A stretch of 62,733 nt of DNA, taken from the NCBI GenBank assembly GCA_003696565.1, contig RFHA01000114.1:1-62733 (forward strand). The letters are read 5' to 3'. Under the pieces are notes generated by a model. The model was not told where the DNA came from and searched no databases. It saw only the letters and a list, made by a program, of their open reading frames with translations. The first letter of the stretch is position 1. Each line of letters begins with the position of its first letter. The position numbers and the translations under genes are program-made. Positions 41,258 to 44,654 of this stretch are shown here, piece after piece. This DNA comes from Chloroflexota bacterium. Lineage in GTDB: Bacteria > Chloroflexota > Anaerolineae > Aggregatilineales > Phototrophicaceae.

Positions 41258-41686
41258 CTAATAGCTAGAACACGTTCCACAACCGCCAGCTTCGTTAAAT
41301 GTGCCATCTTCCTGCTCGTCTTTAGCCTTAAAGGATTTACCACATCCACAGCCACCGGCACTATTCGGATTTTCAATGCGGAAACCGCCACCCATTAAAC
41401 TATCCACAAAATCAATCGTTGCGCCATAAAGATAGCCCAAACTGGTCGGATCAACGATTAAACGCACGCCATCTACTTCAATCAAAGTATCTGTTGCTTC
41501 CGGTGTTTCCTCAAACACCATACCATATTGCAACCCAGAGCAACCACCACCTGCCACAAAAACACGCAAATGATGATTAGGTATCTGCCGTTGTTCTAGC
41601 AAACTGCGAATTGTCGCTACGGCTGCAGGGGTCACTGCCAACGCGCTGTTATCTGTCTTAATCTTATCTGGTTCAATCACTGCCAT
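41258..41686 (-). CDS. A-type iron-sulfur carrier (ErpA/IscA-like) with Cys-rich tail
   Basis: 142 aa, about 30 longer than typical. The three conserved cysteines are present: GGGCSGLQY and GGCGCG. The extension (KAKDEQEDGTFNEAGGCGTCSSY) adds a CGTC pair near the end, close to the carboxy-terminal Tyr. A-type carriers deliver [4Fe-4S] or [2Fe-2S] clusters to target proteins. A SufR-like regulator gene lies directly upstream on the same strand. Confidence 0.9.
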   Translation of the reverse strand: MAVIEPDKIKTDNSALAVTPAAVATIRSLLEQRQIPNHHLRVFVAGGGCSGLQYGMVFEETPEATDTLIEVDGVRLIVDPTSLGYLYGATIDFVDSLMGGGFRIENPNSAGGCGCGKSFKAKDEQEDGTFNEAGGCGTCSSY

Positions 41687-41717
41687 CTGGTTGCTCCTAA
41701 CTTAATCACCTAATTTC

Positions 41718-41753
41718 TGACAAAATTGTATCACTATCTGTCAAGCAAATCAA
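41718..41753 (-). promoter_or_regulatory. erpA promoter with overlapping dyad
   Basis: On the minus strand TTGATT (41748-41753) and TACAAT (41725-41730) are 17 bases apart. TGACA (41718-41722) and TGTCA (41739-41743) form a dyad over the -10 and spacer, a possible operator for the adjacent regulator. Confidence 0.5.
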
Positions 41754-41777
41754 TTAAATAGATACATATTATAAAAA

Positions 41778-42404
41778 TTATCCCACAGGTATCAAATAAG
41801 CACAGACTGAATTACCATCAGAAACGCGAGAAAGCATACGCGGTACAATACCAATCAATGAAGCAACTAACCGCATATCCATATTACACAATGCCTCTGT
41901 GGTATGTGCTAAATCATGATATGGGCAATTCGCTGTGTAAAGGATGAACCCTTCGTCAGATTGCTCAAAATATGCCTGATACCCCTGATCATTCAAATAG
42001 ACAACAGCCGCCTTCAAACGATCCTCCAATGATGCTTCCGTCACATTTGCTTGCTTTGCCATGGACTGAACCATTCCCTCGATAATGACGTTCACACTAT
42101 CAGGCGGCAAGTGCCCTTGAACTTGTTCCAACAAGCTCGCTGCTAAATTACGATAATTGTTAGGGAAATGTTCATGCGCTTTTTCCGTCAGGGCATAGAT
42201 ATGCTGTGGACGACCTGGTGTACTGCGGTGTTTTAGCTCTGGCATAGTGATCAACTGCTCTTTTTGTAGATAATTTAAATGATGCCGAACAGTCACCGCC
42301 GTAATTGCTCCTCGACGGGTTTGGAGTTCTGCCACAATGTCATCAACAGTCGCTTGTCCTTTTTCTCGTAAAATTTGCAGGATTTGTTGCCGTGTCTCTT
42401 GCAT
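41778..42404 (-). CDS. SufR-like Fe-S-sensing transcriptional regulator
   Basis: 208 aa. An N-terminal winged helix (VDDIVAELQTRRGAITAVTVRHHLNYLQ) of the DeoR/ArsR type is followed by TPGRPQHIYALT. The C-terminal half has the SufR-type sensor motif with Cys160, Cys173 and Cys201 (ANCPYHDLAH, ALCNMDMRL, NSVCAYLIP). Cyanobacterial SufR uses such cysteines to hold a [4Fe-4S] cluster and repress the suf operon. The position next to an A-type Fe-S carrier supports a role in Fe-S homeostasis. Confidence 0.78.
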   Translation of the reverse strand: MQETRQQILQILREKGQATVDDIVAELQTRRGAITAVTVRHHLNYLQKEQLITMPELKHRSTPGRPQHIYALTEKAHEHFPNNYRNLAASLLEQVQGHLPPDSVNVIIEGMVQSMAKQANVTEASLEDRLKAAVVYLNDQGYQAYFEQSDEGFILYTANCPYHDLAHTTEALCNMDMRLVASLIGIVPRMLSRVSDGNSVCAYLIPVG

Positions 42405-42465: not shown

Positions 42466-42494
42466 TTGACAACTACCTTAAAAAGCGATATGTT
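42466..42494 (+). promoter_or_regulatory. promoter of the pheA leader
   Basis: A perfect TTGACA (42466-42471), 17 bases, then TATGTT (42489-42494). Transcription from near 42501 gives a leader of about 208 bases before pheA. Confidence 0.65.
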
Positions 42495-42560
42495 ATCTGG
42501 CATGATATAAAATGACATTTAACAGGGGGAACTTTCCCCAAACTAAGTGACTTAACCAAT

Positions 42561-42632
42561 ATGATACTTTTGATGAAACACTTCACATTTAGCTTTACTC
42601 GCTTTACAACACTTCTTGGCAGAAGAAAGTGA
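42561..42632 (+). CDS. phenylalanine leader peptide
   Basis: A short reading frame of 23 codons (19 from the internal ATG at 42573, beginning MKHFTFSFTRF). Four of eight consecutive codons are Phe (42582, 42588, 42594, 42603). E. coli pheL also begins MKH and is Phe-rich. The stop (42630-42632) abuts the RNA segment that can form an antiterminator. The ribosome site is weak (AAGTGA, ten bases before the first ATG). It would sense charged tRNA-Phe for control of pheA. Confidence 0.75.
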   Translation: MILLMKHFTFSFTRFTTLLGRRK

Positions 42633-42686
42633 AGGTTTCACGTGGCAAAATTCTAATGCGTGTGGAAACCTCCACACGCTTTTTTT
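42633..42686 (+). terminator. attenuator: terminator and competing antiterminator before pheA
   Basis: The terminator is a perfect 9-bp stem (42658-42666 with 42671-42679, 4-base loop) followed by seven T (42680-42686). The alternative pairing is 42633-42641 (AGGTTTCAC) with 42662-42671 (GTGGAAACCT), one bulged G; it can extend outward by weak pairs. It occupies the left arm of the terminator, so the two cannot coexist. The arrangement with the Phe-rich leader just upstream is that of a classical ribosome-mediated attenuator. Confidence 0.8.
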
Positions 42687-42708
42687 ATGTGTTCTTTAGG
42701 AGGTAAAT

Positions 42709-43545
42709 TTGACTGATATAGTAGCATTTCAAGGAATACACGGCGCGTATTCTGAGCAAGCAATCCGGCAACATTTTGGTGATTCGGTAGATGTGCTACC
42801 TTGTCGCAATTTTTCTGAGTTGTTTCACGCTTTACATGAAAACAAAACGAAATACGCCATGCTACCTGTAGAAAACGCGCTAGCCGGAGCAGTTAATCAG
42901 GCATATGAGTTATTGATGGATTATGATTTTCGAATCCAAGCAGAAGTTATTTTGCATGTACGGCATCAGTTACTCGCTCCAAAAGGGACAAAGTTATCTG
43001 AGATTCGTTACGTTCGCTCACACCCCCAAGCACTTGCCCAATGTGAAAATTTCTTGCGGCGTAATAACCTAGAACCCATCCCAACTTATGACACGGCAGG
43101 TGCCGCACGGATGTTAGCCGAAGACCCAGAACCATGTACCGGCGCAATTGCCAGTGCCTTAGCGGCTGAGCTTTATAACTTGGATATTTTGGAGCCAAAT
43201 ATTGAGGACGTGACTTTTAATTACACGCGCTTTTTTGTACTTGGTCATGATGACGCACCGCGTGGTGAATACAACAAAACATCACTCGTCTTCGCCACAC
43301 GCAATCGCCCCGCCGCCTTATATGACTGCCTGGGTGAGTTTGCTCGTGCCGGTATTAACTTGACCAAAATTGAATCACGTCCACGCCGTAATCGTCCCTG
43401 GGAACCGGTTTTTTATCTGGACTTTGAAGGGCATTGGCAAGACCCAGTTTGTCAAGAGGTGATGGCGCGCCTGCTGCAACGCGCTTCGTTTGTCAAGATG
43501 TTCGGGTCGTATCCTGCAATAAAAACACAGTCAGTCGGCATTTGA
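42709..43545 (+). CDS. pheA: prephenate dehydratase
   Basis: 278 aa. The catalytic domain (FQGIHGAYSEQAI, MLPVENALAGAV, TFNYTRFFVLG with the conserved Thr) is followed by an ACT domain (ALYDCLGEFARAGINLTKIESRP) that usually binds Phe for feedback inhibition. There is no chorismate mutase domain. It turns prephenate into phenylpyruvate. The start is TTG, 5 bases after AGGAGG. It lies behind a Phe leader peptide and attenuator, so it is likely controlled by both attenuation and feedback. Confidence 0.95.
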   Translation: MTDIVAFQGIHGAYSEQAIRQHFGDSVDVLPCRNFSELFHALHENKTKYAMLPVENALAGAVNQAYELLMDYDFRIQAEVILHVRHQLLAPKGTKLSEIRYVRSHPQALAQCENFLRRNNLEPIPTYDTAGAARMLAEDPEPCTGAIASALAAELYNLDILEPNIEDVTFNYTRFFVLGHDDAPRGEYNKTSLVFATRNRPAALYDCLGEFARAGINLTKIESRPRRNRPWEPVFYLDFEGHWQDPVCQEVMARLLQRASFVKMFGSYPAIKTQSVGI

Positions 43546-43562: not shown

Positions 43563-44654
43563 ATGGATAAACTTAAAGTCGCTATCCTGGGTGCAACCGG
43601 TGCTGTTGGGCAGCGATTCATCCAATTACTAGATAATCATCCCTGGTTTGAAGTGGCAGAATTAGTTGGCTCAGAACGTAGTGCAGGCAAACCATATATC
43701 GAAGCAGCAAACTGGGTATTAGATGGCACACCACCTACCAAGATCGCTCACATGACCGTCAAGGGGTTACATGACTCACTTGAATCCCCATTAGTTTTTT
43801 CCGCCTTACCAAAAGAGCCAGCCCTCTTGCGTGAGGTTGAGCTAGCCAGTGCTGGGCATGTGGTGTGTACCAATGCATCTGCGCATCGTATGGCAGAAGA
43901 TGTTCCACTATTATTACCAGAGATCAATGCCGATCATATCGGATTGATTGATGTTCAACGTCGCAAACGTGGATGGACAAGCGGTGCTTTAGTTGCAAAC
44001 TCTAATTGTACAACCATGCCCGTTGTTATGACACTCAAACCATTAATGCAGTTTGGCATCACAAGGTTGATGATGGTCAGTCAGCAAGCAATCAGCGGTG
44101 CAGGATACCCCGGTGTCGCCTCATTAGATATTCTGGACAATATCATCCCATACGTCAGTGGGGATGAAGGCAAAATGGAAACCGAACCCAATAAAATGCT
44201 TGGCAAATTTAACGGTGACCGCATTGAAGCATTTGAGGTTATTTCTAGTGCAACTTGTACCCGTGTTCCTGTTATTGATGGGCATTTGGTCAATATCTCT
44301 GTATCGTTAGCTCAACAACCCACAATCGATGACATCATCCAAGCCTGGGAGTCCTTCCGTGGACCTGCGCCAGTGCCATCATTACCCAGCGCACCCCAAA
44401 AACCACTGCAATATCTACCGCAGATTGACCGCCCACAGCCCCGCAGAGATCGCATGTTTGGTAATGGGATGGCAACGTCCATCGGGCGGCTACGTCAATG
44501 CCCTATACTAGGATATAAATTCGTGACACTTTCACACAATACCATCCGTGGAGCCGCTGGATGTAGCATTCTAAATGCAGAATTACTGGCAGTAAGTGGT
44601 TATCTTGGTGAATTTACGCCTGCCACCGTTGACAGGTTACAAACCGGTGATTAA
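43563..44654 (+). CDS. asd: aspartate-semialdehyde dehydrogenase, archaeal/fungal-like type
   Basis: 363 aa. The N-terminal NADP motif (AILGATGAVGQRFIQLL) and the active-site Cys in VANSNCTTMPVV are clear. SGAGYPGV and the family region around TRVPVIDGHLVNIS follow. It makes aspartate semialdehyde for the Lys, Thr and Met branches. It begins 17 bases after pheA and so is probably under the same Phe attenuator, although it is not a Phe enzyme. Confidence 0.93.
   Translation: MDKLKVAILGATGAVGQRFIQLLDNHPWFEVAELVGSERSAGKPYIEAANWVLDGTPPTKIAHMTVKGLHDSLESPLVFSALPKEPALLREVELASAGHVVCTNASAHRMAEDVPLLLPEINADHIGLIDVQRRKRGWTSGALVANSNCTTMPVVMTLKPLMQFGITRLMMVSQQAISGAGYPGVASLDILDNIIPYVSGDEGKMETEPNKMLGKFNGDRIEAFEVISSATCTRVPVIDGHLVNISVSLAQQPTIDDIIQAWESFRGPAPVPSLPSAPQKPLQYLPQIDRPQPRRDRMFGNGMATSIGRLRQCPILGYKFVTLSHNTIRGAAGCSILNAELLAVSGYLGEFTPATVDRLQTGD

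Follow-up and report, generated by a model that had tools for sequence, protein, structure and literature searches.

A 304-nt gap upstream of the prephenate dehydratase gene pheA in a Chloroflexota genome of 4.1 Mb raises the question of whether a translated leader peptide controls the genes behind it, and if so, which amino acids it reads and where the arrangement came from. The window analyzed here, a stretch of 62,733 nucleotides, holds pheA on the plus strand (42709..43545), with a TTG start and an AGGAGG Shine-Dalgarno sequence at 42698..42703. The gene encodes a monofunctional enzyme (PF00800, E 1e-62; PRK11898 above cut-off), and its nearest PheA relatives are found in Anaerolineae MAGs, some of them labelled Aggregatilineales. 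The aspartate-semialdehyde dehydrogenase gene asd (43563..44654, plus strand) starts 18 nt after pheA and provides a step of the aspartate pathway towards Thr, Met and Lys. Among 118 distinct pheA loci that we compared, 57 have asd near pheA, directly downstream in all except L044, and the pheA-asd order is conserved at nearly all loci of the window's family. The gap separates pheA from a divergent SufR-like regulator gene (41778-42404, minus strand). Together with a gene for an ErpA-type Fe-S protein, this gene adjoins pheA in divergent orientation (41258-42404, minus strand), and the upstream sequences of many relatives suggest that the regulator has been retained beside pheA.

The original prediction placed a promoter, a short ORF, a stop codon, an antiterminator and a terminator in this gap, and a direct check of the sequence bore out all five. 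The candidate promoter TTGACA-N17-TATGTT (42466..42494, plus strand) was identified by its consensus match, with boxes at 42466-42471 and 42489-42494, a 17-nt spacer and a sigma-70-like score of 10/12. Given an extended -10-like element further downstream (TGATATAAA, 42503-42511), transcription may start closer to the leader ORF. Folding also placed a small 5' hairpin, GGGGA/TCCCC, at 42526..42539 (plus strand). The leader ORF, MKHFTFSFTRFTTLLGRRK, comprises 19 codons (42573..42632, plus strand) and ends at a stop codon at 42630-42632. It has Phe at codons 4, 6, 8 and 11, giving the predicted four Phe codons in eight, and Thr at codons 5, 9, 12 and 13. From codon 4 to codon 13 the peptide is F T F S F T R F T T: of these ten residues four are Phe, and four of the six others are Thr. 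No clear Shine-Dalgarno sequence was seen 5' of the leader ATG. Another ORF (42656-42706, MRVETSTRFFYVFFRR) was rejected as a Phe leader, since its Phe codons stem from the T-run of the terminator.

The leader contains regions, all on the plus strand, that can pair in alternative ways. Region 1 (TGAAAC-a-CTTCAC, 42574..42586) pairs with GTGAAGGTTTCA at 42629-42640 to form a 1:2 protector helix of 12 bp with one bulged A and a duplex energy of -16.5 kcal/mol. This helix, the Thr codons and the position of asd are additions to the original prediction. Region 2 (GTGAAGGTTTCACG, 42629..42642) has two possible partners, region 1 (via 42629-42640) and region 3 (via 42634-42642). Region 3 (42658..42670), placed by folding and by a covariance-model match described below, contains the 5' arm and loop of the terminator and is shared with the antiterminator. 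In the latter, AGGTTTCAC, immediately behind the stop codon (42633-42641), pairs with GTGGAAACCT (42662-42671), overlapping the terminator 5' arm. The intrinsic 3:4 terminator, GCGTGTGGAAACCTCCACACGC followed by T7 (42658..42686), forms a perfect helix of 9 bp (42658-42666 with 42671-42679) ahead of a T-run at 42680-42686. Direct pairing and masked folds agree with the prediction that antiterminator and terminator exclude each other.

To follow the switch, we folded only the RNA left exposed by a ribosome at each position. The full switch was obtained. When RNA polymerase has reached 42670 and the leader carries no ribosome, the 1:2 helix forms. With the ribosome stalled at Phe4, Phe8 or Phe11, the 2:3 helix forms (42634-42642 with 42661-42670). 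With the ribosome at the stop codon, region 2 is covered and the terminator is free to form. In equilibrium folding the terminator wins once region 4 has been synthesized, so the order of synthesis matters, as in known attenuators.

These folds suggest the following course of events. Transcription would start near 42500 and a ribosome would enter the leader ORF. Under ample supply of Phe-tRNA and Thr-tRNA, the ribosome would reach the stop codon and cover region 2 (42629-42642), the 3:4 terminator would form and RNA polymerase would leave before pheA. When Phe-tRNA is short, and probably Thr-tRNA too, the ribosome would stall at codons 4-13 and cover region 1, freeing region 2 for the 2:3 antiterminator, and polymerase would presumably read through into pheA and asd as one transcript. 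If the leader were not translated, regions 1 and 2 would pair and the terminator would form by default.

We compared these elements with dinucleotide shuffles of the gap, keeping the terminator intact in the test of the whole switch. The full switch, with all four ribosome states, was found in none of 3000 shuffles, and both stalled states in 102 of 3000. Single elements gave modest values: P = 0.010 for an ATG ORF with at least four Phe in eight codons, 0.05 for the 2:3 duplex and 0.03 for the 1:2 duplex (86/3000 shuffles), and it is the elements taken together that carry the case. At least four Phe and at least four Thr codons in ten occurred in one of 30000 shuffles of the gap, a test computed on Thr codons that had already been noticed.

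These values bear on a rival explanation, in which the hairpin acts close to the promoter as a terminator that is constitutive or under some other control, or else stabilizes the mRNA, and the Phe-rich ORF arose by chance in AT-rich DNA. The P for the Phe-run is about 0.01-0.03. Moreover, five relatives (L004, L009, L052, L057 and L071) have a GTGGAG..CTCCAC-type hairpin with a T-run before pheA, soon after the pheA-asd promoter, and no leader ORF. In some relatives a similar hairpin before pheA leaves no room for a leader peptide, which indicates that the hairpin alone may serve another role. We nevertheless consider this explanation unlikely for the window, given the absence of the full switch from the shuffles and the near-identical hairpins in the family that follow Thr/Met leaders with covarying antiterminators. 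The short codon-rich ORF, the mutually exclusive antiterminator and terminator, and the protector helix are features of the attenuator class. These sequence features make it highly probable that pheA-asd is an operon under ribosome-mediated transcription attenuation that works like the classical type. This reading, already made in the original prediction, is supported by the anatomy of the leader, by masked folding and by a covariance model built independently on the family's Thr leaders.

The model derives from leaders at another operon. A DNA search with the window's leader matched about 40 other sites in the family, every one through the hairpin. All 27 of the copies inspected precede an aspartokinase gene, nearly all of them behind a Thr/Met-rich ORF (L126-L152), and the window's genome itself has such a leader, MFNIICTTTTMTMMTPHRKDGWGYLRLV, before aspartokinase (L133:1374-1516). 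The window's terminator is near-identical to those of these Thr/Met leaders. In the latter, region 2 pairs better with the terminator of the same leader than with those from relatives (0/20000 permutations, a figure inflated by relatedness), and one antiterminator pair covaries, exchanging GC, AT and TA. Covariance model R1 was built only from the 27 Thr/Met leaders of aspartokinase genes, with the window's leader excluded. In a search of the window, R1 picked out this leader with 38.8 bits and an E of 6.2e-8; a large share of the score is owed to the terminator. Across the genome the leader ranked second among the matches. At E <= 0.1, R1 has matches in 88 of 98 genomes of the family.

This likeness may mean that a Thr-leader attenuator of local origin was copied in front of pheA-asd and its codons then changed to Phe, or else it may reflect convergence on a common terminator sequence. 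The near-identical terminator, the GGTTTC antiterminator core and the remaining Thr codons are consistent with a copy. However, the spacer and peptide are otherwise unlike the Thr leader of the same genome, the loop of that leader is AAATCC and not AAACCT as before pheA, and similar hairpins already precede pheA in relatives. Copying is thus a possible origin that we put forward only tentatively.

At pheA itself, the comparison covered other genera of the window's family, with at most 77% PheA identity. No Phe/Thr leader ORF was found at their pheA loci, so direct conservation or covariation was not seen for the window's leader. The pheA version stands on one genome and on a shared design, which is conserved and covaries at aspartokinase and aroH. 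The relatives' pheA upstream regions told partly against the original prediction, in that other genera lack the ORF, although further operons retain this design. The wide unrecorded spread that it had envisaged applies to the mechanism among Anaerolineae and does not extend to the window's pheA leader. The locus comparison also rejected conservation of a Phe leader before pheA throughout the class.

Beyond the window, only three of the 118 distinct pheA loci, the distant Anaerolineae loci L107, L103 and L120, have an aromatic ORF convincingly followed by a terminator, and none was found before pheA among the additional class loci and genus loci compared. L107, in which a DAHP synthase gene follows (pheA-aroF), has the Phe leader EFAFFSRFF. 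L120, with two such genes (pheA-aroF-aroF), and its relative L103 have the leader RGFSFGNFWFGYYF, containing Phe, Trp and Tyr, and by inspection a GTCTCCAC / GTGGAGAC antiterminator. The DAHP synthases at L107 and L120 were named via sequence motifs. Aromatic-looking ORFs at L002/L045, L048, L072 and L116 were rejected because they have no terminator; that of L116 additionally overlaps an upstream coding stretch. A plasmid search gave no match. Leader codons appear to track operon content: Phe and Thr at pheA-asd, Phe at pheA-aroF (L107), and Phe, Trp and Tyr at pheA-aroF-aroF (L120).

Which amino acids would the window's leader sense? The original prediction read it as a Phe sensor, and the Phe codons are there. 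Phe codons 4, 6 and 8 are also the best placed for masking region 1: this region is masked best by stalls at codons 4-8, and a ribosome stalled at codons 11-13 has it on its upstream side. The operon, moreover, begins with pheA. An attenuator for Phe only, with incidental Thr codons, is thus quite conceivable, if somewhat short of an even chance. Against it stand the share of Thr among the non-Phe residues of codons 4-13 and the closely spaced asd in a conserved gene order. Considering that four Phe and four Thr codons fall within ten and that asd follows pheA in the family, we suggest that the leader is a mixed Phe/Thr sensor matching the pheA-asd operon, which we regard as probable, though finely balanced.

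Leader-peptide designs also precede other biosynthetic genes. Weaker R1 matches pointed to the chorismate mutase gene aroH. Of the family's aroH loci (L237-L266), 27/30 have a terminator, most behind an aromatic-rich ORF such as RYYYFYFKSHIE, and Tyr/Phe-rich leaders are conserved at aroH in this family; in the window's genome the Tyr/Phe leader MFFYALGFYYFANHMMQGRVCLRANQ precedes aroH-aroF (L253:1300-1450). The cognate antiterminator/terminator pairing of aroH leaders beats permutation (0/20000). In sister families of the order, hisG is preceded by His-rich leaders and terminators, e.g. MSKMTVHAHHQHHHHKTS, with peptides such as HAHHQHHHH and YHHHHHNF (among L306, L310, L312, L316, L318 and L322). 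No His leader was seen before hisG in the window's own family, nor at hisG and hisD within the window. In a single case (L231; G028:C816, 2586-2671), a Cys-rich short ORF, MNMLACVCCSNITQGC / MNMLACVCCSNITQGCVPRFI, and a terminator precede a cysteine synthase gene. The trpE gene of the window's genome has a T-box leader (RF00230, 119.5 bits; L277:1089-1352), so that T-box and putative leader-peptide control coexist in this genome. None of the leader-peptide loci passed the cut-off when scanned against the Rfam leader families.

We see about an even chance that one peptide co-senses Phe and Thr for pheA and asd on a Thr-leader scaffold, within a lineage-wide, unrecorded set of Chloroflexota attenuators (Thr/Met, Tyr/Phe, His, Phe and perhaps Cys) whose codons follow the genes of their operons. 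If true, the Phe/Thr leader on pheA-asd would be an instance of leader codons following operon content, and would suggest that one RNA scaffold has been re-coded between amino acids. With attenuation at several operons in a phylum that branches deeply, comparison could test how old the mechanism is and whether it arose more than once.

Naville and Gautheret, 2010 (PMC2965389) state that leader-peptide systems had until then been demonstrated in no phyla other than Proteobacteria and Actinobacteria, to which they added Firmicutes; His leaders in further Firmicutes are reported in PMC9413887. Our search of literature outside subscription journals found no report of leader-peptide attenuation for Chloroflexota, Chloroflexi or Chloroflexus. 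The mechanism is classical; the phylum, the RNA family and the Phe/Thr pairing appear to be unrecorded in the literature searched. Actinobacteria and Firmicutes likewise use ribosome-mediated attenuation outside Proteobacteria, but these cases concern other phyla and Trp, Leu/Ile/Val, Cys or His, and a Phe/Thr leader is absent from the portions seen of PMC1262725, PMC2965389 and PMC9413887. The T-box (RF00230) likewise responds to amino-acid shortage; it instead binds uncharged tRNA directly and has no leader peptide. An Rfam scan found neither a T-box nor another Rfam element in the pheA leader.

The enterobacterial pheL-pheA attenuator (RF01859) likewise has a Phe-rich leader peptide, 1:2, 2:3 and 3:4 helices and an intrinsic terminator before pheA. 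The same order of parts upholds the likeness drawn in the original prediction, which had also pointed to an MKH start that we take to be shared with pheL. This start is not evidence of kinship, because the window's leader scores 15.4 bits against the Phe_leader gathering threshold of 55, which places it outside that family, and because region 1 itself covers those codons. A transfer from enterobacteria would account for both resemblances, yet the monofunctional pheA is of local type and the terminator resembles those of local Thr leaders; we find such a transfer extremely improbable, and kinship with pheL was rejected on the Rfam score and the local pheA type. The window's leader further differs in its mixed Phe/Thr codons, in a region 2 that lies after the stop codon and in preceding a monofunctional pheA with asd. 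The thrL attenuator of thrABC (RF00506) likewise combines a Thr-containing leader, an aspartate-pathway gene in the operon and a three-helix logic; the Thr/Met leaders of the window's family are below the Rfam cut-off for Thr_leader (best 29.8 vs 55 bits). Compared with thrL, the window's leader adds Phe codons and has pheA as first gene, and its terminator matches the Thr/Met leaders of its own family.
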